Shown here piece by piece: positions 3,913-37,639 of a stretch of DNA of 38,655 nt (position 1 is its first letter; each line of letters begins with the position of its first letter). Position numbers and translations under genes: made by a program. Below the pieces are notes generated by a model, which worked only from the letters and a program-made list of their open reading frames with translations, was not told the DNA's origin and did not search any database. Source of the DNA: a virus; IMG/VR virus record IMGVR_UViG_3300043639_000055, positions 1-38,655 of that record; one strand, written 5' to 3'.

Positions 3913-5106
3913 ATGTCGCGGTCCGCCTGCGCCATCGGCAAGGACGTAGTACCCGCCTCGTTCAAGGGGGTGCAGTTCTATTGCACGGAAGCCGATGTCG
4001 AAGGCGGGCGTCGCGGGGCCGAGGGAGAATTCCCGTTCGGTGAAGACACTGCTTATGCAGATCTCGGAAGGAAGATTCGTGTTTATCATCTCACAGCGTA
4101 TTTCAGAGAAGACAACCACGTCTGGGACAGCGAGGCACTCTTCGCAGCTTGCGAATCCCCCGGCCCCGGTATGCTCGTCCACCCGACACGCGGCACCGTC
4201 ATGGTGGCGTGCCGGTCTGTCAAGGTTAAGGATGAAGTTGAGCAGAGCGCGGGTGAGACGTCTGTTGAGATGGAGTTCGTCGAAGCGAACATCGGCTTCA
4301 CGGGCATCCTCGGTTCGATCTTCGGAATCATCTCGTCAGGACTTGCCGGCACTTCGCAGGCGTCCTTTCTGAGGGACTACACGCCGACCCGGGTGTCGCA
4401 GCCGTGGCGCACCGACGTCATCAACAAGGCGCAGTCGCTGATCACCTCGACTTCAACGGCTGCGATCAAGACGCTGACGATGGACTCGCCGCAGAACGAC
4501 TGGCGCGTCACACTGCACATGCAGGAGGTAGCGCAGGACGACGGACTGGCGTCATCAGCGAAGACGGTCGACCGCGCTATGACCGATGGTTTCAGCCTGA
4601 TCACGCGCAATGTCGTCGATCCGAACCGCAAATTCAGCATTTTCCGTGGGCTCGCCAACGCGGCCACGAACTCAACGTCGCTGCCGGCCGGCGAGGGCAC
4701 GTTGAGCGACGAAGCCGTCGTCAGCCGCCATCGGATCCTCGCCGCCATCGGCATGGCCGATGCGGCGATGGGTCGGAAATACGCCACCATCGACGAGTGT
4801 CTGGCAGCGATGAACATGACGCTGGCCGTGTTGAAGGACGAGGCTGACGCGGCCTACGCGCACTGCGACAACAAGCTGTACATGGAGATCACGAAGTACA
4901 GCGTCGAGTTCGCCAAGATGATGAACGACCTGTCGTACCGGCTGCCGGCCAAGGTGATGGTCAATTTCTCCGGCGGCGTACATCCGCTGGTCGCGGCCTA
5001 CACGATCTACAAGGATGCCAAGCGGCACCGCGAGCTTGAACTGCGCAACGTCATCGACGCCAATGGCCGCATTGGCCCGATTGTTTCCGGTATCGCACCA
5101 GCATGA
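3913..5106 (+). CDS. DNA circularization / baseplate protein, Mu gpN family
   Basis: A 397-residue protein. Residues 8-125 carry the family signature of the DNA_circ_N domain: ASFKGVQFYCTEAD, then a DLGRKIRVYHLTAYF stretch, ALFAACESPGPGMLVHPTRG, and the closing EMEFVEAN. In Mu the homologue gpN is a virion tail/baseplate component needed for tail assembly; the circularization name is historical. The rest is helical and Ala-rich. It sits between the tape measure and the gp44-like hub, as in Mu. Confidence 0.88.
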   Translation: MSRSACAIGKDVVPASFKGVQFYCTEADVEGGRRGAEGEFPFGEDTAYADLGRKIRVYHLTAYFREDNHVWDSEALFAACESPGPGMLVHPTRGTVMVACRSVKVKDEVEQSAGETSVEMEFVEANIGFTGILGSIFGIISSGLAGTSQASFLRDYTPTRVSQPWRTDVINKAQSLITSTSTAAIKTLTMDSPQNDWRVTLHMQEVAQDDGLASSAKTVDRAMTDGFSLITRNVVDPNRKFSIFRGLANAATNSTSLPAGEGTLSDEAVVSRHRILAAIGMADAAMGRKYATIDECLAAMNMTLAVLKDEADAAYAHCDNKLYMEITKYSVEFAKMMNDLSYRLPAKVMVNFSGGVHPLVAAYTIYKDAKRHRELELRNVIDANGRIGPIVSGIAPA

Positions 5107-8838: not shown

Positions 8839-10751
8839 CGCCGGAAGAACTGGACCTCAATCAGCCGCCGAAAATCCCGGCTGTCCCGACGGATCCGAAT
8901 CACGCGGCCTCGAAGAAGTATGTGGACGAGCGGCGCGGTGCGCCACCATGGGACGACCTGCCGCTCGCGAACGGAATTGCTGACCCCGGAACGTCGGAGA
9001 AGTACGCACGTGGCGATCACACCCACCCCGGAGGCGGCGGAGCGCAAGGCCCGGCGGGACCAGCTGGTCCGGCTGGTCCTGCTGGTCCTGCTGGCCCTGC
9101 TGGTCCTGCCAGCACTGTTCCGGGGCCGCAGGGGCCGGTCGGCCCGGCGGGGCCGAAAGGCGACAAGGGAGATCAGGGCCTAGCCAGCACCGTCCCCGGT
9201 CCGCAGGGGCCGCAGGGGCCTGTTGGTCCGGTCGGTCCGGCCAGCACTGTGCCGGGTCCGCAGGGACCGCAGGGCCTGCCCGGTGCCGACAGCACGGTGC
9301 CCGGCCCGGAAGGCCCGCCCGGCGCGGACAGCACTGTGCCGGGTCCGCAGGGGCCGCAGGGCGAGATCGGCCCGCAGGGTGTGCAGGGCGTGCAGGGCGA
9401 GGTCGGCCCGCAGGGCGTGCCCGGTGCCGACAGCACGGTGCCGGGGCCGCAGGGTCCGCAGGGCGACATCGGCCCGCAGGGCATTCAGGGCGTGCAGGGT
9501 GTGCCCGGTCCGGCTGGTGCCGACAGCACGGTGCCGGGTCCGATAGGGCCGCAGGGACCGCAGGGCGTTCAGGGCGATCCCGGTGTGGCCGGCGTGCAGG
9601 GTCCGGTCGGCCCGGCTGGTGCCGACAGCACGGTGCCCGGCCCGCAGGGGCCGCAGGGTCCGCAGGGCGTACAGGGGCCGGCCAGCCCGGCGTCGGTCGT
9701 CACGGTCACGCCGGTCGGCAACATCGCGGCGACCAACGTGCAGGCGGCGCTGGCCGAACTGGACAGCGAGAAGGTTGCGAAGGCCGGCGATCTCATGACC
9801 GGCAATCTCGCCATCCAGCCGGTCGGCGGCGTCGTGTCGCTGAACCTGTACGGTGCGGCCAATACCAACGTCGATGTGCTGGGCCTCAAGAATGGACTGA
9901 CCCGCTGGCTCGCGCGGTTCGGCGACTCAGCCCCGGAAAGCGGCGCGAACGCCGGCTCTAATTTCGATATCTACTCGTACGTCGATGACGTGACGGCGGC
10001 TAATCTCAGGTTCAGCATCGACCGCGCGAGCGGGCGGGTCACGACCCACAACGGTCTGACTAACATCGGTGGCCTCACCAACGCTGGTGACGTTTACGTC
10101 TATCGTGACCTGTCGACAGGTGCGCTGTTCTTCGGGTCCGACGGCACCAACTACATCTATCTTGATGGCACGAATTACAGCCTTGTCGGTGGCAAGCTGT
10201 TACTCAGCGAAGGCGATCCGACTGCGCCGCTGCATGCCGCGACCAAGCAGTATGTCGATGGCAAAGGCGGTTTCGAAGCCGGCGTCGTGCTGCCGTTCTA
10301 CATGGCGGCAGCGCCGCTCGGCTGGACCAAGCTGGCGACGCAAAACGACAAGGCGCTGCGCGTCGTCTCTGGCGCAGGCGGTGTCGCTGGCGGCACCAAT
10401 CCGTTCTCGACGGTGTTTGCGCAGACGACGACCGGCAACCACACGATGACGTCGGTTGAATCTGGCACGGTTCAGTCGACCGGCCTCAACGCCATTTACG
10501 CTTACGCAGGCGGCAGCGGCGCGAACTTCACGGCGGTCGCGCAGAACAGCGCGCCGATCTACACTTTGACGGTCGCACAACTGGTCGGCGGCTATGTGGT
10601 GCCCTACACCACCGGCGCATCGTGGGCCTATACGACGTATGATCTTGCGAACGCCAACATCGTCGTGTCGGGCGGCGGTGGCGGCGCACATAACCACCCG
10701 ATGACGATGGCGATTCAATACTGCGATGTAATCCTGTGTCAGAAAAACTGA
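8832..10751 (+). CDS. Tail fibre with collagen-like stalk
   Basis: A 639-residue protein overlapping the J-like gene by 7 bases. Residues 1-70 form an N-terminal attachment region including [11 protein letters not shown]. Residues about 72-286 are Gly-X-Y collagen-like repeats, many in units such as [13 protein letters not shown], predicted to form a triple-helical stalk. Residues 290-475 are a beta-rich shaft with a KQYVDGK segment. The tip (about 478-639) begins [15 protein letters not shown] and ends [18 protein letters not shown], a tail-collar-like receptor-binding end. The tip is paralogous to that of the 11729-13057 fibre. Confidence 0.87.
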
Positions 10752-17335: not shown

Positions 17336-18049
17336 TTAGACCACGCGGAAGGCGTAGCCCTCGCGGCGACGCTTGCGCATCGACAGAAGACCGACGCCAG
17401 CAAAGCCAAGCACCATCATGGCCCATGTCGAGGCTTCCGGCACCGCCGCAACCTGCGGGATCGGCGCGGCGTCGATACGGTAGTGTTCGAAGTCGTTGAT
17501 CGAACCGCCGATGCCGAGGAACAGGTCCAGATCGACGATAACCTCACCATTGATGGTCGTGAAGTCGAAGCCCTTCTGCTGGTTGCCGTTGCCGAGATTG
17601 TAGCCGCCACCACCAAGCCCTGCGATGCCACCGGCAAGGTTGGTGAAGTTCAGGGTGTTGATGCTGCCGTCCGCTTCCGCGACCGTCAGCCTGAAGAACA
17701 CGTCGCCGGTGCCCTTGAGCGAGAAAATATCCCGCGTGGTGCCCAGCTGGACCGTGTTGGTGCTGTCAAAAACCGTGATGTCCAAATCGCGGGTGTTGAC
17801 GATCTTGATGTCCTGTCCGTTGGCAGCGCCAGCGAACCCGTTGGAAAGAGACAGGTCGCGGAAGCGAACGATCTCGTTGTTCTGGCCGTTGAGATGACCA
17901 AGGATCAGATGGCTGTCGTTGATGTCGATGCCGCTGAACACGACGTTGTTGCCGCTGCCACCGAGGCCGGTGGTATCGAGCAAAACATCGGCGCTGGCGG
18001 GGATCGCCGACAGCGTAAGCAGTGCGACAGTCAATAGTAGTTTTCTCAT
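17336..18049 (-). CDS. PEP-CTERM-like exported surface protein
   Basis: A 237-residue protein with a clear signal peptide (residues 1-20, ending SAIPASA-DV). A beta-rich, Asn/Gly/Asp-rich body follows with no cysteine. The C-terminus has the tripartite PEP-CTERM plan: VPEASTWAMM near 203-212, a hydrophobic helix to about 222, then RKRRR. In characterised hosts such proteins are processed by an exosortase and sorted to the outer surface or matrix. The motif here is PEA rather than the usual PEP, and eight residues follow the basic cluster. No exosortase gene lies in the window, so the host would have to supply it. Not a virion protein by any visible feature. Confidence 0.75.
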   Translation of the reverse strand: MRKLLLTVALLTLSAIPASADVLLDTTGLGGSGNNVVFSGIDINDSHLILGHLNGQNNEIVRFRDLSLSNGFAGAANGQDIKIVNTRDLDITVFDSTNTVQLGTTRDIFSLKGTGDVFFRLTVAEADGSINTLNFTNLAGGIAGLGGGGYNLGNGNQQKGFDFTTINGEVIVDLDLFLGIGGSINDFEHYRIDAAPIPQVAAVPEASTWAMMVLGFAGVGLLSMRKRRREGYAFRVV

Positions 18050-18138: not shown

Positions 18139-18148
18139 CTGGTATCAC
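18139..18148. promoter_or_regulatory. Operator-like site CTGGTATCAC
   Basis: One copy of the dispersed near-palindrome (consensus GTGRTAYCAC). It spans the stop codon of the YadA-like gene, upstream of the PEP-CTERM-like gene. Belongs to the repeated family described in the findings. Confidence 0.45.
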
Positions 18149-18942
18149 CAACCGATACGACCGCCGACCTGTCCGGCCCACTCGGTGCGCCCGCTGAAGG
18201 TGCTCCCCGCCGGCATGAACGACGCACCAGCGAAAACGCTGATGTTGCGGTTGACGCGAGCGATGCCCTTCATGCCGAAGGCGGCGCTCTCGTTGTTGAA
18301 GCCGAAGCCACCTGATATCGCGAAGTTCTCGTGGGTCTCCAGCCAGATCGGCAGCGCAAGAGCACTTGCCAGAGCCGTACCGTTGGAAGCGAACTTGTGG
18401 GCGTTGTAGTTGGCGTTGGCCTGAATGGCGGCGACGTCGGCAGCGGTCAGACCTTTGCCCGGGTCGCCTTTGTCGCCCTTCGCGCCGGCCACTCCTTGGA
18501 TACCTTGCGCGCCCTGCGCGCCGGTCGCCCCGGTGTCGCCCTTGGCACCGGTTGCCCCGGCCACCCCTTGGACGCCCTGCTGCCCTTGCGCCCCGGGCGC
18601 TCCGTTCGCTCCCGGCGCTCCGGCCGGACCTTGGGGCCCGGTCGCGCCGGGCGCACCAGCGACGCCCTGAACGCCTTGGAGGCCCTGAATGCCTTGGATG
18701 CCTTGTGCCCCGGGCAGTCCCTGCGGTCCCCGGGCGCAGTTCGACAGGTCCAGATTGACCCCGTAATTGCCGCCCAGCGGCGAGGTGTCGATGCTGGACC
18801 CCGGCCCGGCGACGTTCTGCTGGCCGCCCTGCTGTGTGGCCGTCCACTGGCCGCAGCCGGTGGTCGACCAGTTGTTGATGTTGTCCGCTCGCGCGGCTGC
18901 GGGTAGCGACAGCAGTGCTGCCAGAATGACGATTCGTTTCAC
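18145..18942 (-). CDS. Outer-membrane protein: collagen-like passenger with YadA-type anchor
   Basis: A 265-residue protein starting at GTG 18942 with GGGGG upstream. Residues 1-19 are a signal peptide ([13 protein letters not shown]). Residues 20-71 are a Gln/Asn-rich head with two cysteines. Residues 72-164 are uninterrupted Gly-X-Y collagen-like repeats. Residues about 188-265 ([14 protein letters not shown] ... [21 protein letters not shown]) fit a YadA-like membrane anchor, which trimerises as a 12-stranded barrel in trimeric autotransporters, and end with an aromatic residue. The product should display a collagen-like trimer on the host surface. The start codon lies inside a parS-like palindrome. 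Confidence 0.78.
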
Positions 18943-26372: not shown

Positions 26373-26561
26373 TCAAAGTTGAATTATTTTTCCGCTGGGC
26401 AGAAGCTTGTGTGCCGGGCGGACCGGGTTGTTAGCGTGGAACTGCTTCCACACGCTCTTGGGGCAGTACTGCCCGTCGTGGTCCACCTCGACAAGGTGGC
26501 GGGCATCTTCGTTAGAGAGGCGGACAGGAATGCCTTGTCCGACAACTTGCACGCACTTCAT
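26373..26561 (-). CDS. Hypothetical protein, 62 aa
   Basis: Start taken at ATG 26561, which gives an ATGA overlap with the papain-like gene; an earlier ATG at 26591 is possible. Sequence MKCVQVVGQGIPVRLSNEDAR ... HDGQYCPKSVWKQFHA is compact alpha/beta. Family not recognised. Confidence 0.5.
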   Translation of the reverse strand: MKCVQVVGQGIPVRLSNEDARHLVEVDHDGQYCPKSVWKQFHANNPVRPAHKLLPSGKIIQL

Positions 26562-27025
26562 CGGTTGAATCTCCAGATCCCGTAGACGCATCGCGTGCCA
26601 TCACGCGAGCAATCGTATTCGTCGTACAGCACGCCGTGCACCACGGCGGTGTAGTGTTTGCTGAGCGCCAGCACCAGCCAGCCCTTCGGCAGTTCGTCCT
26701 CGCGGACATGCACCTTGCAGCCGCTGCCGATCTGCATCGTCGGCGTCCACGTAAAGCCCATCGCCGTCATGTAGTCCTTGAACGGCTTGCTCTTGGTCCA
26801 GATCCCGCGCGAGGCGGTGCGCTGGCCGGCCGCGCCGCGCTTCCTGCGGTGCTTTGTCATTCGCATGCTGGCGTTCAGTTCGGCCAGTTCGTTGTAGACC
26901 TCGATGTACGGCCGGCCCGAGGCGATGGCGACCGCGCGAGCGACGCAGTCACCGGCGACTTTCTCGTTCTTGAACCCGGCCTTGCGGCGACCGCCGTCGT
27001 CTTGGATGAATTGAATGGCAGACAT
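26558..27025 (-). CDS. Papain-like cysteine-peptidase-fold protein
   Basis: A 155-residue protein, first gene behind the promoter/operator at 27051-27078. GDCVARAVAIASGRPY places C27 at the start of a helix; GWLVLALSKHYTAVVHGVLYDEYD gives H124 on a strand, followed by D135/D138 and a closing strand CVYGIWRF. This Cys...His...Asp order with a hydrophobic helix is that of minimal papain-like enzymes. The substrate is unknown; anti-host or self-processing roles are speculation. Confidence 0.55.
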   Translation of the reverse strand: MSAIQFIQDDGGRRKAGFKNEKVAGDCVARAVAIASGRPYIEVYNELAELNASMRMTKHRRKRGAAGQRTASRGIWTKSKPFKDYMTAMGFTWTPTMQIGSGCKVHVREDELPKGWLVLALSKHYTAVVHGVLYDEYDCSRDGTRCVYGIWRFNR

Positions 27026-27050: not shown

Positions 27051-27060
27051 ATGGTATCAC
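27051..27060. promoter_or_regulatory. Operator-like site ATGGTATCAC
   Basis: Overlaps the -10 box of the - strand promoter at 27051-27078, so a bound repressor would block RNA polymerase directly. Confidence 0.65.
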
Positions 27061-27078
27061 GAACAGGATAGAAGTCAA
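27051..27078 (-). promoter_or_regulatory. Early promoter of the conserved family, for the papain-like gene unit
   Basis: On the - strand TTGACT (27078-27073), 16-base spacer, TACCAT (27056-27051). The upstream GAAAATAGTTG is shared with the promoters at 29487-29514 and 31377-31404. The TGA of the 349-aa gene lies within the -35 box. Confidence 0.7.
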
Positions 27079-28124
27079 CAACTATTTTCGTGTGTCACTG
27101 CGTAATCATGCAGCACGAAGCCGAGAGAAGTGTCGCCGCGCACGTGCTCGCGGATCCAGATCTTCTCGCCCGGGTGGAAGCGGTCGACCCGCCAGTGGCC
27201 GCGCACACTGTGGCCGCGCCGCCGGGCGATGGCGATGGCGCGCTTGGCGATGGTCTTGTACCGTTTCGCCGGCACCGTCAGCGAGACCACGGTGTGCTCT
27301 GAGAACTTCTTGTAGGATCCCCGGGAGACGTAACCACGGCTTGGCTTGACCTGCACCAGCGAGGTCGGCAGGTCGTTGATGGTGGCGAGCAGCGACCACA
27401 GGTACCGCGCGTCGTGCGCCAGTTCGCCCAGCGGGTTGAAGTACTGGTGGGCCATGCTCTTGAATTGCAGGTCTGCTTCGTGGCCGATGTGCGGCGCACG
27501 GATAACCGAAAAAGATTCGGTGTGGTAGTCCAGCACGCCAGTCATGATGCCGGGCGGCGTCGCCACGATTTCGGGATCGCCGGGGTCAACCCGGCACGGC
27601 TGGTTGCTGTGGTAGAACGGATCGCGCGGCCACGGCGGAATCGTGTCGTCGGACGTCCACGCATAGGCAAACTGCCCGGCGTTCGGGTAAGCCTGCCGCT
27701 TGTTCTCGTTGTCCCACGAATGGCTGGTGCAGTGGATCGCCATGAAGGTGGTCTCCAGCTGCGGGTGCTGCATCAACAGCCAGCCCGAGCGATCCGGCAC
27801 GCTGTCGGCCTCCGCCACGATGTCCGGGTGGTAGGCTTCCTTGACGCGCCTGCGGTGCGCCTGCTTGTCGTACTCGATCCACGTCGTGGCGTGGGGCAGC
27901 CGGGCCAGCTTGCGCATGCTCTCGACGAGGTGAGTGCGCGCAGCGATGGTCTGGCAGGCGTTGAGGCTGACGTAGCCGAGATCCGCCATGAACGCCGACA
28001 TGCCCTCGTCGATCACGAACTTGCGCGCTTGGGCGACGTGCGTGGCCAGCCAGTTGTTCTTGTCGATCTTGCGATAGACCGGCCGCTGCCATTCACGGAT
28101 CAGATCGTCGGCGAGCGTGGTCAT
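27075..28124 (-). CDS. Conserved phage hypothetical protein, 349 aa
   Basis: Start ATG 28124 with AAGGAA upstream. The N-terminal half is helical (WLATHVAQARKFVIDEGMSAFM). The last 90 residues hold a signature seen in other phage proteins: VSLTVPAKRYKTIAKRAIAIARRRGHSVRGHWR followed by WIREHVRGDTSLGFV, with conserved His, Arg and Asp. The Arg-rich HSVRGHWR segment suggests nucleic-acid binding. Role unknown. Confidence 0.6.
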   Translation of the reverse strand: MTTLADDLIREWQRPVYRKIDKNNWLATHVAQARKFVIDEGMSAFMADLGYVSLNACQTIAARTHLVESMRKLARLPHATTWIEYDKQAHRRRVKEAYHPDIVAEADSVPDRSGWLLMQHPQLETTFMAIHCTSHSWDNENKRQAYPNAGQFAYAWTSDDTIPPWPRDPFYHSNQPCRVDPGDPEIVATPPGIMTGVLDYHTESFSVIRAPHIGHEADLQFKSMAHQYFNPLGELAHDARYLWSLLATINDLPTSLVQVKPSRGYVSRGSYKKFSEHTVVSLTVPAKRYKTIAKRAIAIARRRGHSVRGHWRVDRFHPGEKIWIREHVRGDTSLGFVLHDYAVTHENSC

Positions 28125-28681
28125 CCGATTTCCTTGCGATAGTTGAAGTGGGTGCCGCCGGCATCGACGATGTCGACCAGTTCGCCATCGACGTATCCGA
28201 CGCAGCCCCTGCCCTGATTGTAGGTCAGGATGTGCGGGTAGACCTTGAACCGGCGCTCGCAGAAATACTTGCCTCTGTCGGTTATGCGGATGTAGCCGTT
28301 GCGCGGGTTGCCGTCTTCCTTGGTCCCGCCGTGCCACTCTGTGAGACCCCAGTACCGAAGCTTGGAATGGTCACGGTCGAGTTGCACGTAGGTCAGGTAT
28401 TTCGGACCGTGCAGCCAGTGGCCGGATGAATCATTCATGTGGAACTGCAAATTGCCGTAGAGCGTCGGGCGGATGAAGTAGCGGTACAGCGCCATCATCT
28501 GCGCCGCCATCACGCTGTTCAGCGCGCGTTTCTTGATGGCGTGCAGGGCATCGCAATGCTCGCAGCGCCACTTGCTGTCCATCAAATCCTTGGCCTGCTC
28601 CGGCGTGTGCACGGTCAGGTGCGACAGGCCGGGCGACGTATCGACATGCGGCCGGCGGCGCGATCCTCGGTAGCCGCTCAT
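28121..28681 (-). CDS. Hypothetical protein with Cys pair and winged-helix-like body, 186 aa
   Basis: Start ATG 28681 (ATGA overlap). WRCEHCDALHAIKKRALNSVMAAQMMALYRYF has a CxxC plus H (C39, C42, H46) leading into a helix, and the C-terminal GYIRITDRGKYFCERRFKV resembles the wing of an MarR-like fold. Probably a DNA-associated early protein. Confidence 0.55.
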   Translation of the reverse strand: MSGYRGSRRRPHVDTSPGLSHLTVHTPEQAKDLMDSKWRCEHCDALHAIKKRALNSVMAAQMMALYRYFIRPTLYGNLQFHMNDSSGHWLHGPKYLTYVQLDRDHSKLRYWGLTEWHGGTKEDGNPRNGYIRITDRGKYFCERRFKVYPHILTYNQGRGCVGYVDGELVDIVDAGGTHFNYRKEIG

Positions 28682-28929
28682 ATCCGCACCCACTCGGATC
28701 GCGCGCCGGAGAAGCGCAGCTGCACGGTGGACACGTCCCACTTCTGGGCGATGCACACCACGTGCGAGTTCGGCGGCGATTGGCCGGGGGCGCGGACGTA
28801 GAGCGCCTTGCCGTCCCAGTGCACGGCGTAGCTGATGCCGCCGGCAAGGCCGGCGAGCTTCGCCGCCTGACGCAGCGCGTCGTCGTAGCCGGGGTGCGCC
28901 ATCGCAGCGCGTTCATCAAGCTTGGTCAT
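28678..28929 (-). CDS. Hypothetical protein, 83 aa
   Basis: Helix (GYDDALRQAAKLAGLAGG) followed by a beta-rich C-terminus (ISYAVHWDGKALYVRAPG). Overlaps the upstream gene by 14 bases and is ATGA-coupled to the downstream one. Family not recognised. Confidence 0.5.
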   Translation of the reverse strand: MTKLDERAAMAHPGYDDALRQAAKLAGLAGGISYAVHWDGKALYVRAPGQSPPNSHVVCIAQKWDVSTVQLRFSGARSEWVRI

Positions 28930-29098
28930 CGTCCTCGTCCAGTTTGATGGCGTCGATGCGCCATTCGGTTTTCGATCCGCCCATCGGCAGCAGGTAGGTG
29001 CTGCCGACGGCGATGCCGCCGCTGTCGCGGAACGTGCACCAGCGGGTGCGACGCCTGCCTTCAGTCTCCTGAAGCTTCACTGTGGCTTCGGTGATCAC
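28916..29098 (-). CDS. Hypothetical protein, 60 aa
   Basis: GTG start at 29098 in a GTGA overlap. All-beta composition (RRTRWCTFRDSGGIAVGSTYLLPMGG) with an acidic end. Family not recognised. Confidence 0.45.
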   Translation of the reverse strand: MITEATVKLQETEGRRRTRWCTFRDSGGIAVGSTYLLPMGGSKTEWRIDAIKLDEDDDQA

Positions 29099-29277
29099 CC
29101 CGTGTACTCCGTGACCCGGATGCTATCGCCGGTGTTGATGACGACCTGCATGACGAAGTCGACCATCGCCTTGTTGATCTTGCCCTCCTCGTCCTGCTCG
29201 CCATCGGCGATGGTGAGGCTGGTCGAGTCGAGCGACATGCCGTGACTGTTGATCAGTTCGATGTGGACGACTTTCAT
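29095..29277 (-). CDS. Hypothetical protein, 60 aa, possible paralogue of its neighbour
   Basis: MKVVHIELINSHGMSLDSTSLTIADGE, then a helix (AMVDFVMQVVIN) and TGDSIRVTEYT. The strand-strand-helix-strand order and the GDSIRVTE end parallel GDTLTIITAE of the adjacent 60-aa protein, suggesting an old duplication. Confidence 0.5.
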   Translation of the reverse strand: MKVVHIELINSHGMSLDSTSLTIADGEQDEEGKINKAMVDFVMQVVINTGDSIRVTEYTG

Positions 29278-29278
29278 T

Positions 29279-29461
29279 TCACTCCTCGATTTCTGCTGTG
29301 ATGATGGTGAGCGTGTCGCCATCGTTCATGTGGTGGCGCTGGATCAACTGGATCGCAGCTTCGGCGATGACCTGCACGGTGGCGTCATCGTAGTTGAGCG
29401 TGATGTCGTGGATCCCGTAGTGCGGTTTCTCGAGCCGGACGACTGTTTTCCTGACTAGCAT
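29279..29461 (-). CDS. Hypothetical protein, 60 aa, first gene after a repressible promoter
   Basis: ATG 29461 with GAGGAG about eight bases upstream. MLVRKTVVRLEKPHYGIHDITLNYDDA, a helix, then NDGDTLTIITAEIEE. It is the first gene of the unit read from the promoter at 29487-29514. Confidence 0.5.
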   Translation of the reverse strand: MLVRKTVVRLEKPHYGIHDITLNYDDATVQVIAEAAIQLIQRHHMNDGDTLTIITAEIEE

Positions 29462-29478
29462 TGTGGTCTCCTCTGTTT

Positions 29479-29488
29479 GTGATACCAC
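29479..29488. promoter_or_regulatory. Operator-like site GTGATACCAC
   Basis: Lies at the downstream edge of the -10 box of the promoter at 29487-29514, over the predicted transcription start. Confidence 0.65.
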
Positions 29489-29514
29489 CATACGCGGTCA
29501 GGAATACAAGTCAA
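29487..29514 (-). promoter_or_regulatory. Early promoter of the conserved family, for the 29461-27075 unit
   Basis: On the - strand TTGACT (29514-29509), 16-base spacer, TATGGT (29492-29487), preceded by GAAAATAGTTG. The block GAAAATAGTTGTTGACTT is identical to those at 27073-27090 and 31365-31382. Confidence 0.72.
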
Positions 29515-29523
29515 CAACTATTT

Positions 29524-29769
29524 TCACACATCCGCATCGAAGATGACGGCTTGATATCGGTTCGGATCCAGACCCAGCCGCTTGACCGCGCGCATCATCG
29601 GATCGCTGCCGCCCGGGATGATGCAGACGTCCTTGCCGGTCCAGCCGTAGATGTCGACCCAGAACACGATACGGCCGTCGTTGTGCATGTCGCGGATCGG
29701 CATCGACGTCCTGTAGCGGTAGTCGATGCTGGCGGCGCGGATCGCCGCCGACCGTTCCCACTTCTTCAT
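29524..29769 (-). CDS. Hypothetical protein, 81 aa
   Basis: Start ATG 29769 (ATGA overlap). Alpha/beta product (RDMHNDGRIVFWVDIYGWTG ... VKRLGLDPNRYQAVIFDADV). Its stop is directly followed by the conserved promoter block. Family not recognised. Confidence 0.5.
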   Translation of the reverse strand: MKKWERSAAIRAASIDYRYRTSMPIRDMHNDGRIVFWVDIYGWTGKDVCIIPGGSDPMMRAVKRLGLDPNRYQAVIFDADV

Positions 29770-29975
29770 TTTGTCGGTTCCTTGGTGATAACAGTCGAGT
29801 GGGTGAGCGCGATGATCTTGCAGTTCTTCGGCGTGATCATGCTCCAGTGATCGCAGTGCTGGTCGCCACCACGCTTGAATACTTGGGCGTACCCGACGGC
29901 GAATCCGATGAAGCCCGGCGGCAGTACACACATGCCGCGCCGCTTCAGATACCAGATGGCCAGACGTTCGATCAC
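29766..29975 (-). CDS. Hypothetical protein, 69 aa
   Basis: MIERLAIWYLKRRGMCVLPPGFIGFAVGYAQVF is an amphipathic start of a kind seen in other small phage proteins; a weak hydrophobic stretch lies at 18-30. ATGA-coupled to both neighbours. Confidence 0.5.
   Translation of the reverse strand: MIERLAIWYLKRRGMCVLPPGFIGFAVGYAQVFKRGGDQHCDHWSMITPKNCKIIALTHSTVITKEPTK
29785..29794. promoter_or_regulatory. Weak operator-like site GTGATAACAG
   Basis: Two mismatches to the dispersed consensus, inside the 69-aa gene near its 3' end and upstream of the 81-aa gene. May be chance. Confidence 0.25.
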
Positions 29976-30349
29976 CTCATGCTCCTCAGTTTATCCATCA
30001 CCGTCTCCCAGCGCGTGCTGACATCGACGCCGTGGCCGTCCACGGCAGCCGTCTTGCACATGTCAACGTAGGCGACCGGCACGGCGAAGTAGAAGATCGC
30101 ATAGGTGCTGTCGTACGAATCGTCCTCGTCGCGCAGGTAGCCGGCGCGGCGCGTCATCTCCGCGTTCTGCTCCGCATACTCCTCGCGGTTGCCGCCGCCG
30201 GTGCGGGTGTAGACGATGATCTCGGTGCCGTCCTTGTTCAGGAAGCAGTCGCGGAATCGCGGCACGTTGCGGTGGTCGAGTTGGATCATGGCGAGCAACG
30301 GACCAGCCAGCTGGTTGACGCCGAAAACCATGTTGTACAGTCCGCTCAC
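29972..30349 (-). CDS. Conserved phage hypothetical protein, 125 aa
   Basis: GTG 30349 with AAAGGGACG upstream, GTGA overlap. LAGPLLAMIQLDHRNVPRFRDCFL, IIVYTRTGGGNREEY and YLRDEDDSYDSTYAIFYFAVP form a pattern I recognise from a widespread small phage/plasmid family of unknown function. The TRTGGGNR loop is its most conserved element. Confidence 0.65.
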   Translation of the reverse strand: MSGLYNMVFGVNQLAGPLLAMIQLDHRNVPRFRDCFLNKDGTEIIVYTRTGGGNREEYAEQNAEMTRRAGYLRDEDDSYDSTYAIFYFAVPVAYVDMCKTAAVDGHGVDVSTRWETVMDKLRSMR

Positions 30350-30573
30350 GTGCCGTCCCTTTCTGCTGTCATCGACCGTTCCCAGTCGATCAGCTTTCGG
30401 CAGTAGACGCTGCCGGTGTAGAAGTTCTTGTAGATGATCGTCGTCGGATACAGGTCTTGACGATCAACCTCGACGTTGGCGTAGCCCTGCACGACGTACA
30501 GATTGCCGTTGTGGTGCTGCCACCGCGTGTCGATCTTCGGCCATGTCGCCGGCTTCGTAAGATATATCTTCAT
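30346..30573 (-). CDS. DUF1653-like small protein, 75 aa
   Basis: Start ATG 30573 with GGAGAG five bases upstream. TRWQHHNGNLYVVQGYANVE ... TTIIYKNFYTGSVYCRKLIDW matches the beta-barrel pattern of DUF1653-type proteins (HhxGxxYxVxG ... YxxxxxGxxWxR). Function unknown. Confidence 0.55.
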   Translation of the reverse strand: MKIYLTKPATWPKIDTRWQHHNGNLYVVQGYANVEVDRQDLYPTTIIYKNFYTGSVYCRKLIDWERSMTAERDGT

Positions 30574-30574
30574 G

Positions 30575-30847
30575 TCACTCTCCATCGCACCATTCACATT
30601 CGCCGACACAGTCCTCCAGTCCGCACTCCATGCGGCTGATCAGGTCGGCGTAGTCCGGCTTCCATGGCCGGTTCGTGCAGTCGACCATCTCGTGCACGCC
30701 GCCATCGACCCACCGCTTGCGATGCGGGGCCTCGACCCGGCACTCGTGGGTGTTGCCGACCTTGTCATCCTCGACCTTCGCACCGAGGAACGATGCGATG
30801 GTCCTAACCTCGCGCAGCGTGCGCTGCTTTGCTGCCGGCTGTCCCAT
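30575..30847 (-). CDS. Hypothetical protein with C-terminal Cys cluster, 90 aa
   Basis: Basic N-terminal half, then MECGLEDCVGECEWCDGE at the C-terminus with four cysteines among acidic residues, a possible metal site. Family not recognised. Confidence 0.5.
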   Translation of the reverse strand: MGQPAAKQRTLREVRTIASFLGAKVEDDKVGNTHECRVEAPHRKRWVDGGVHEMVDCTNRPWKPDYADLISRMECGLEDCVGECEWCDGE

Positions 30848-30848
30848 G

Positions 30849-31058
30849 TCACACCACCGTGCAGTCGGCGAGCAGAACGCGAATGGTCTTCTTCGAGATG
30901 TCCAGCTTGACGCGGGCGATCTCGACGCGGGGACCGGCGATGACCGTGTTCGGCGCGACGCGCCGACCGTCGGTCTTCTTCAGGTAGGTGGAGGTGACTT
31001 CGCCGTAGCGGTCACCCATCATCCACCTGTCGGTGTAGGCCGGGATCTGAACGCGCAT
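30849..31058 (-). CDS. Conserved phage hypothetical protein, 69 aa
   Basis: ATGA overlap with the upstream gene. MRVQIPAYTDRWMMGDRYGEV ... IARVKLDISKKTIRVLLADCT has the all-beta pattern of a small phage family (DRWMMGDRYGEV, then LDxSxKTIRVxLxDC). Role unknown. Confidence 0.6.
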   Translation of the reverse strand: MRVQIPAYTDRWMMGDRYGEVTSTYLKKTDGRRVAPNTVIAGPRVEIARVKLDISKKTIRVLLADCTVV

Positions 31059-31288
31059 CACTTCTTCCTTTTGGTCTTGGTGGTGAACACCACCTCGCCG
31101 AAGCGGGTGTGGCCGCCGGTGGTGTTGAGCATCCGCAGGACGTTGTCCTTGTCGGTCGAGACTTCGACGATCTTGACGATGATGTCGTCGCGGCTGGTCT
31201 TGGCCAGTTCGTTGGCATCCTTCTTGGCGGACTCCAGCGTGGCATGGTAGGGCGACATGTCGCCGCTGTCGACGTAGTAGAATTTCAT
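31058..31288 (-). CDS. Hypothetical protein, 76 aa, first gene of its unit
   Basis: ATG 31288 with CGGAGACGG upstream. Alpha/beta product (MKFYYVDSGDMSPYHATLESAKKDANELAK) with a Lys-rich end. It is the first gene read from the promoter at 31315-31342. Confidence 0.5.
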   Translation of the reverse strand: MKFYYVDSGDMSPYHATLESAKKDANELAKTSRDDIIVKIVEVSTDKDNVLRMLNTTGGHTRFGEVVFTTKTKRKK

Positions 31289-31304
31289 TTGCCGTCTCCG
31301 TTGT

Positions 31305-31314
31305 TGGTATCCAC
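31305..31314. promoter_or_regulatory. Weak operator-like site TGGTATCCAC
   Basis: Shares TGGTATC and CAC with the consensus but has one extra C. Sits just downstream of the - strand -10 box. Confidence 0.3.
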
Positions 31315-31342
31315 AACATAGCACGTGGTATCAGGAAGTCAA
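31315..31342 (-). promoter_or_regulatory. Early promoter for the 31288-29524 unit
   Basis: On the - strand TTGACT (31342-31337), 16-base spacer, TATGTT (31320-31315). The operator at 31325-31334 lies inside the spacer. Confidence 0.7.
31325..31334. promoter_or_regulatory. Operator-like site GTGGTATCAG
   Basis: Between the -35 and -10 boxes of the - strand promoter, a classic position for steric repression. Confidence 0.68.
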
Positions 31343-31376
31343 CAGGGTATTTGCAAGAAAGTAATGAAAATAGTTG

Positions 31377-31404
31377 TTGACTTCTATGATTAGCCTGCTA
31401 TGAT
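31377..31404 (+). promoter_or_regulatory. Promoter of the isolated + strand gene
   Basis: TTGACT at 31377-31382, 16-base spacer, TATGAT at 31399-31404, the best -10 of the family. Preceded by the shared block beginning at 31365. No operator overlaps it, so it may be the least repressed member. Confidence 0.75.
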
Positions 31405-31437: not shown

Positions 31438-31599
31438 GTGCAGATCCAGTCAGTCAAGAAGGAAGAGCTCGCTCTTCTGATCAACGGCCTCCGGTCCACC
31501 ATCGTGATGGACCAGCAGGATCTTCAAGCCCGCCTGCTGGAACAGCTGGAAGCCGAACTGCTTCAGAGGTTCGGTCTCAAATTGAGGGAGGCCGCCTGA
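31438..31599 (+). CDS. Isolated + strand small protein, 53 aa
   Basis: GTG 31438 with AAAGGAA at 31427-31433, behind a strong promoter. The product is a charged helix (MQIQSVKKEELALLINGL ... LQARLLEQLEAELLQRFG) likely to form a coiled coil or helical hairpin. It is the only + gene in an 18-kb - strand block and ends in a hairpin shared with the convergent gene. That layout (own strong promoter, no overlapping operator) suits a regulator or constitutively made protein, but there is no recognisable DNA-binding motif. Confidence 0.6.
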   Translation: MQIQSVKKEELALLINGLRSTIVMDQQDLQARLLEQLEAELLQRFGLKLREAA

Positions 31600-31634
31600 C
31601 AGGAAGGCCCCGGGGAAACCCGGGGCCGCTGTCA
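31597..31634. terminator. Symmetric hairpin between convergent genes
   Basis: Inner stem GGCCCCGGG (31606-31614) with CCCGGGGCC (31619-31627) around GAAA. Outer stem TGACAG (31597-31602) with CTGTCA (31629-31634). The outer arms contain the stop codons of both convergent genes. It lacks a T-tract on either side, so termination strength is uncertain. Confidence 0.7.
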
Positions 31635-31796
31635 TGCCAAGCCTATAATGAATCCGACGACGAATGCCGCCACCAGCCGGAACCGGGATATCGCACCCAG
31701 CGCCAGCAGGAAGACGAGCACGAACCCGATGACCGGCACCTTCCAGCAGAACCAGAGGATGATGCCTATTACAAAGCCGATAAGTCCCAGTTTCAT
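31632..31796 (-). CDS. Small hydrophobic membrane protein, 54 aa
   Basis: Starts at ATG 31796 (54 aa) or ATG 31802 (56 aa). Almost wholly hydrophobic: LGLIGFVIGIILWFCW, VIGFVLVFLLALGAI and RLVAAFVVGFIIGLA give two or three transmembrane helices. No Shine-Dalgarno is visible and the upstream promoter would start transcription at about the first codon, so the mRNA may be leaderless. Candidates are a superinfection-exclusion or other membrane-acting protein. Confidence 0.55.
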   Translation of the reverse strand: MKLGLIGFVIGIILWFCWKVPVIGFVLVFLLALGAISRFRLVAAFVVGFIIGLA

Positions 31797-31802
31797 TTGC
31801 AT

Positions 31803-31831
31803 TGAATATGATACCACAAACTAAAAGTCAA
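31803..31831 (-). promoter_or_regulatory. Promoter candidate for the small membrane protein
   Basis: On the - strand TTGACT (31831-31826), 17-base spacer, TATTCA (31808-31803). The operator at 31808-31817 fills the end of the spacer. The -10 is poor. Confidence 0.5.
31808..31817. promoter_or_regulatory. Operator-like site ATGATACCAC
   Basis: In the promoter spacer of the small membrane protein gene. A partial second copy (AGATACCAT) lies at 31831-31839. Confidence 0.6.
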
Positions 31832-36931: not shown

Positions 36932-37341
36932 CGCCAACTCCTTCCGCCACGGGTTGTGACCTTGCGCATGCCATGCCGGGAACAGACATCACGACCACGA
37001 CGCTCGGGCCGGTAGATCTTGCGGCGACGCACCGGCAGCGGCTCTTCCTCCACCGCATCCGCCACCTCGGGCTGGGGGACTGGAGGTGGCGGAGCGGCTT
37101 CGGCAGGCACGATAGGAATTGTTCGTACCGGCACCACCGAGGGGGCAATGTAGCGATCTTCGAAATCGGCCTTACGCAAAACTTGGGTGACCGAAACAGG
37201 CTTCGGTGAAGACCTTGTCGCCCATACGCACGTAACTGCAAACAACACGCCGACAGCCCCTGCTATCGCGAACCCCCTCCAATGTCGATCTGCTCCGAGA
37301 TCCATCCATTGAGTTTCCAGTGGAAAAGGTCGGTCAATCAT
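36919..37341 (-). CDS. Membrane-anchored hypothetical protein, 140 aa
   Basis: Residues about 22-42 (GFAIAGAVGVLFAVTCVWAT) are one transmembrane helix. The next 60 residues are Pro/Glu-rich and extended. The C-terminus (DVCSRHGMRKVTTRGGRSWRCRK) is basic with two cysteines, a pattern seen at the end of rhizobial secreted proteins. Topology suggests a periplasmic Arg-rich tail. Its start is overlapped by a variant operator (37340-37349). Confidence 0.55.
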   Translation of the reverse strand: MIDRPFPLETQWMDLGADRHWRGFAIAGAVGVLFAVTCVWATRSSPKPVSVTQVLRKADFEDRYIAPSVVPVRTIPIVPAEAAPPPPVPQPEVADAVEEEPLPVRRRKIYRPERRGRDVCSRHGMRKVTTRGGRSWRCRK

Positions 37342-37349
37342 GGTATCGC
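37340..37349. promoter_or_regulatory. Weak operator-like site ATGGTATCGC
   Basis: Two mismatches to consensus; overlaps the start codon of the membrane-anchored protein gene. Together with 37366-37375 it makes a spaced pair in the divergent region. Confidence 0.35.
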
Positions 37350-37365: not shown

Positions 37366-37375
37366 GTGGTATCAG
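37366..37375. promoter_or_regulatory. Operator-like site GTGGTATCAG before the RHH gene
   Basis: Twelve bases upstream of the ATG of the ribbon-helix-helix gene, in the divergent region with the membrane-anchored protein gene. Suits autoregulation. Confidence 0.6.
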
Positions 37376-37387
37376 GTGAAAGTGAAC

Positions 37388-37639
37388 ATGGCAACGAAAA
37401 AGAAGCGCGCTACCAAAAAGGCCCCCAAGAAAAAGATTGGCCGGCCTAAGTCGACTGGCATGGGCACGCCCATGGTGGTCCGAATGCACGATCCGCAGAT
37501 CGAGGCTATTGACCTCTGGATCGGCGACAACGGACTATCCCGTCCAGAAGCGATTCGCCAGCTGGTGAAGTGGGCGCTGGAACACGTCAAGAAGCCGGTG
37601 GCGATCCCGGCGACCAACGGCGCGGAGCTCCACGGGTGA
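37388..37639 (+). CDS. Ribbon-helix-helix regulator with Lys-rich N-terminus
   Basis: An 83-residue protein from ATG 37388; an in-frame ATG at 37340 is less likely because the operator would fall in its coding sequence. Residues 1-17 are Lys-rich, followed by an AT-hook-like IGRPKST. Residues 25-68 (MVVRMHDPQIEAIDLWIGDNG ... SRPEAIRQLVKWALE) are a typical MetJ/Arc ribbon-helix-helix with a strand, two helices and SRPEAIR at the second helix. Such dimers bind short palindromes. Preceded by two operator-like sites, so it is the best candidate for the dispersed-operator repressor. Confidence 0.75.
   Translation: MATKKKRATKKAPKKKIGRPKSTGMGTPMVVRMHDPQIEAIDLWIGDNGLSRPEAIRQLVKWALEHVKKPVAIPATNGAELHG

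Follow-up and report, generated by a model that had tools for sequence, protein, structure and literature searches.

The promoter Pspac derives from phage SPO1, and its variant Pspac-hy is a strong promoter. Pspac-hy, which is used for expression, contains aaaaagttgttgacttt, nearly the same core as the sequence word described here (PMC4945081). In Listeria phage CKA15, whose early promoters have been mapped, TTGACTT is preceded by an AT-rich stretch that is conserved (PMC12282133). In the early ("uber") promoters of T4, an UP element, a -35 box, a TGn motif and a -10 box are combined; these promoters are read by the host RNA polymerase and outcompete the promoters of the host (PMC2988021). The proximal subsite of an UP element extends from -45 to -37 and is bound by the C-terminal domain of the alpha subunit (PMC2613000).

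The window, i.e., the whole stretch of DNA analyzed here, equals one complete IMG/VR virus record of 38,655 bases with 62% GC, which is probably a phage fragment. Its + strand carries genes for the baseplate of a contractile tail, tail-fibre-like genes and an endolysin, and its - strand holds most of the replication-type genes. Two adjoining genes on the - strand both encode proteins with an apparent signal peptide. The product of the first (17336-18049), for which no PHROG match was found, ends in the C-terminal sequence VPEASTWAMMVLGFAGVGLLSMRKRR, resembling a PEP-CTERM sorting signal, and the product of the second (18145-18942) is a collagen-like protein.

An 18-base word at three predicted promoters

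The exact 18-mer GAAAATAGTTGTTGACTT occurs three times in the record, at 27072-27089 (-), 29508-29525 (-) and 31366-31383 (+), and a search of the record with up to three mismatches allowed returned no matches beyond these exact copies. In dinucleotide shuffles, the mean number of matches at the same tolerance was 0.01, and no shuffle reached three. An earlier note on this DNA had reported the same 18 bases at three promoters; the copies are indeed exact, although the coordinates given at the time were off by one base. The word consists of AAAATAGTT followed by TTGACT. With TTGACT set as -35 to -30, AAAATAGTT occupies -45 to -37 in all three copies. Each copy continues with a 16-bp spacer, a -10 box, a short leader and a Shine-Dalgarno (SD)-like sequence, after which a gene begins. 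All three predicted promoters thus have -35 and -10 hexamers within the 16-18 bp spacing range and, at about -45 to -37, a proximal subsite rich in A, and all lie immediately 5' of a gene. The -10 boxes are TACCAT (27056-27051), TATGGT (29492-29487) and TATGAT (31399-31404), and two of the three match at only four of six positions. The 16-base spacer that had been claimed for all three copies was confirmed, whereas the TATNNT-like -10 box does not describe the first copy, where TACCAT follows the pattern TANNAT.

The first two promoters, P1 and P2, point leftward, each towards the next gene on the - strand. Copy 1 contains the TGA stop codon (27075-27077) of the upstream gene, in which it reads ...E N S C stop, a context not found at the other two copies. 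At P1, a TG lies one base 5' of the -10 box, and the gene predicted to be driven from here (26558-27025, -; ATG at 27025) encodes a 155-aa protein of unknown function (phrog_3754). Copy 2 overlaps the TGA stop (29524-29526) of the upstream ORF, and the gene predicted to be transcribed from P2 covers 29279-29461 (-), with its ATG at 29461. Copy 3 is located in a divergent intergenic region. It belongs to the solitary rightward promoter P3, which has a TGC 5' of its -10 box and precedes a predicted target gene of 53 aa (31438-31599, +; GTG at 31438). This gene closes with a strong hairpin (31594-31637, +; -34.1 kcal/mol, z -5.1), which probably acts as a terminator despite the lack of a T run. 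Since the three copies sit in different coding contexts, coding does not explain the identity of the 18-mer.

Two further promoters had been proposed to retain only TTGACT. One of them, the divergent partner of P3 (31342-31315, -), has the arrangement TTGACT-16-TATGTT without the full block and is followed by a gene starting at 31288. The other (31831-31803, -) is a weaker candidate: TTGACT is present, but the -10 box is poor, either TATTCA with a 17-bp spacer or CATATT with a 15-bp spacer. A promoter scan of the record did not list it.

Operator-like sites and candidate regulators

The sequence TGATACCA is present nine times in the record (0.3 expected), and the more general pattern TGRTAYCA 13 times (0.6 expected), so that operator-type repeats over promoter elements exceed chance. 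Most TGRTAYCA sites lie close to the start of a gene in the - strand region. A copy of TGATACCA at 27052-27059 (-) covers the -10 box of P1, and another at 29480-29487 (+) touches the -10 box of P2 by one base and covers the probable start point, whereas P3 is free of such a site. The statement that two of the three promoters carry the operator over the -10 box is therefore fair, if the one-base contact at P2 is counted. In addition, TGATACCA lies within the spacer of the divergent partner promoter (31326-31333), and the weaker candidate has the operator-like TGGTATCA at 31809-31816. Exact or one-mismatch TGRTAYCA sites were located at 18140, 19521, 23255, 27052, 29480, 31305/31326, 31809/31831, 35627, 37341/37367, 37837 and 38590; some are paired, 21-26 bp apart, and they are concentrated in the early region of the - strand.

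The set likely represents the regulon of a phage repressor, which probably binds the 8-bp TGRTAYCA as an element separate from the 18-base block. One candidate regulator is a ribbon-helix-helix (RHH)-like protein encoded at 37388-37639 (+), with operator-like sites just 5' of its gene (37341-37348 and 37367-37374). Its Pfam score is below the cut-off and its match to a PHROG repressor has an E-value of 1.7e-5; a low-confidence single-sequence structure model yielded no significant fold match, and a sequence search found no solved relative. Another candidate is a small protein of the relative described below (L121, 10753-11061), which by eye resembles a helix-turn-helix protein and has sites around its gene; no library recognized it.

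Conservation in a relative and recurrence in other phages

A relative of 51,229 bases (G001), found via its helicase, is collinear with the record in the reverse direction. The DNA identity between the two is 72-81%, with 81% around P1. The conservation comparison relates to this one relative: a search for a second relative across the P1 region recovered G001 alone, the record G002 stops before the promoter region, and a DNA search of the whole region against named phages gave just one weak, unrelated match. At orthologous junctions, G001 has predicted promoters at 3950 (P1), 1168 (P3) and 1202 (divergent partner). In all three, GAAAAT stands a short distance 5' of TTGACTTCT, while at the P2 orthologue TTGACTTCT is present and the A-tract is missing. 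Hence, the A-tract is retained at three of four promoters, one base further upstream than in the record, and the letters between it and the -35 box vary; in particular, the AGTTG letters have changed while GAAAAT has been kept. Some of the conservation of copy 1 in G001 could reflect coding, because this copy extends into codons of the gene upstream. The 53-aa protein is also conserved in the relative, behind the orthologous P3 promoter.

Over the -10 box of its P1 promoter (3969), G001 has TGGTACCA where the record has TGATACCA. A sequence of another kind, GRCTGTGCTA or close to it, recurs in its other -10 regions, so the operator part of these promoters seems to evolve faster than the part recognized by the polymerase. 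The GRCTGTGCTA-like sequence is common to the -10 regions at 1168, 1202, 3950 and ~1945, and at 10397-10440 (L119) of G001 it is arranged as the inverted repeat ACTGTGC-N14-GCACAGT, which may be a second operator. The relative also encodes a NusG-like transcription antiterminator immediately 5' of the terminase genes (L121, 10215-10715, -), which possibly controls its late genes.

Across IMG/VR, the exact 18-mer was found at 97 loci in 41 distinct contexts, which were grouped by flanking sequence with our own similarity threshold and may represent fewer independent origins. In 27 of the 41 contexts, a -10 box matching at least five of six positions of TATAAT follows at 16 or 17 bp, compared to 1.9% when random positions of these loci are taken and 2.3% when 18-mers with matching GC content are. 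The reversed 18-mer was detected at 16 IMG/VR loci (three contexts, none promoter-like), and reversing only the upstream eight letters left a single locus. Among the matches listed for the 16 A/T variants, GAAAAT outnumbered all others combined, and in these matches GAAAATAG appears to be strongly preferred over other sequences before GTTGTTGACTT across phages. The 84,980 bacterial and archaeal genomes searched contained the 18-mer at only 23 loci. In named phages, exact copies occur in Bacillus phage Troll, Escherichia phage PAS7 and an unannotated Escherichia phage record, and close variants in Vibrio phage nt-1 and Pseudomonas phage Laces98. Bacillus phage Troll also has several near-copies, AAATAGTTGTTGACTTTTAG, in a row before successive small genes. 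A match in a paper on ompU was rejected as a promoter, since it turned out to be a primer for cloning, placed at the end of a gfp gene. The 18-mer thus probably represents a common viral promoter design that has been reused in a GC-rich genome, and not a new kind of control element.

Function of the block and comparison with known promoters

We consider it very likely (probability about 0.85) that the three copies mark strong promoters of the UP/-35/-10 type for the host sigma-70 polymerase, some of them under repressor control. The block would form the upstream half of promoters for the housekeeping RNA polymerase of the host: region 4 of sigma would bind TTGACT, and AAAATAGTT would serve as a proximal UP element for the C-terminal domain of the alpha subunit, whose preference would depend on the host. 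The TG 5' of the -10 box at two of the three promoters could provide an extended -10 contact. Together, UP element, -35 box and TG would make strong, activator-independent promoters, which would suit early phage genes. A phage repressor that recognizes TGRTAYCA may block the polymerase at the -10 box, the start point or the spacer of P1, P2 and the 31342 promoter, while P3, which has no TGRTAYCA site, would stay on.

The identity upstream of the -35 box had previously been taken to indicate an UP-like element or an activator site in addition to sigma-70 boxes. The former is well supported by the position at -45 to -37, the retention of GAAAAT at three of four promoters in the relative and the preference across phages. 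Were the block a site for a phage-encoded activator, the promoters would fire only once this protein had been made. Such a site would account for an exact identity over 18 bases, which goes beyond the needs of a loose AT-rich UP element, and for the preference for particular letters among the matches listed. However, phages that are unrelated and infect hosts as distant as Bacillus, Escherichia and many uncultured ones all carry this word, and no phage regulator shared among them is known, which makes an activator site very unlikely. Moreover, the -35 boxes are good, unlike those of typical activator-dependent promoters, and the relative alters the AGTTG letters of the block but not GAAAAT.

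The three copies might also be recent copy-paste duplicates of a single promoter cassette, identical by descent and not by selection. This explanation concerns the origin of the copies and is compatible with promoter function. The copies within the record are identical, whereas the AGTTG letters vary among those of the relative, as recent duplication would predict. On the other hand, the identity ends with the block, after about 22 bases at most, the flanks and coding contexts differ, and the relative has predicted promoters sharing these features at the orthologous sites, so we regard recent duplication as unlikely. A chance or coding repeat devoid of promoter function could draw on the overlap of copy 1 with the last codons and the stop of the upstream gene, but it is hard to reconcile with an expectation of 0.01 copies, three different coding contexts, the -10 boxes and genes that come next, and the promoter-like setting of the word elsewhere; we give it hardly any credence.

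Beyond the preferred reading as host-type promoters, we tentatively suggest that GAAAATAGTTGTTGACTT might act as a composite word recognized by the polymerase, with a letter specificity that exceeds that of a generic AT-rich UP element. Phages unrelated to each other, and from distant bacterial hosts, would then have arrived at it by convergence, as it could be a near-best upstream promoter half for bacterial RNA polymerase generally. This broader proposal is possible, but the odds are against it. The frequency of the same exact word across unrelated phages was unexpected. With one 18-mer as promoter half in about 40 viral contexts, a set is available for testing whether UP/-35 recognition is shared across bacteria, and the 18-mer offers a simple search word for early promoters in uncultured phages. 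The promoter design, whose best-known examples come from AT-rich phages, is extended by the record to a GC-rich phage, where a repressor-like operator is added.

The repressor-controlled early promoters of temperate phages resemble the promoters studied here in having operator-like sites over the -10 box, the start or the spacer, and in the presence of a gene for a small DNA-binding protein with the same sites upstream. The promoters of the record differ in that the block-bearing P3 lacks a site and the repressor is a candidate; among the genes covered by the analysis, no integrase turned up. The early promoters of T4 show the same combination of UP, -35, TGn and -10 elements, whereas the promoters in the record have weaker -10 boxes and added operator-like sites, and the phage is not T4-like as far as its genes could be read. 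A further likeness is to the SPO1-type early promoters of the Herelleviridae, represented by Bacillus phage Troll, Listeria phage CKA15 and, as an engineered relative, Pspac-hy, which feature TTGTTGACTT, an A-rich stretch directly upstream and a -10 box of the sigma-A type; both the TTGACTT core and the conserved A-rich upstream sequence are found here. However, these are phages of Firmicutes that have many copies of such promoters, while the record represents a phage with 62% GC and has three copies, two of which are overlaid or touched by a repressor-like operator, unlike the SPO1 type. The baseplate genes match tail families other than that of the Herelleviridae, and the helicase has at most ~40% identity to named phages, with no Herelleviridae among those listed. 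As the record does not represent the early region of a Herelleviridae phage, we conclude that its promoters would work like the Herelleviridae type without being members of it.
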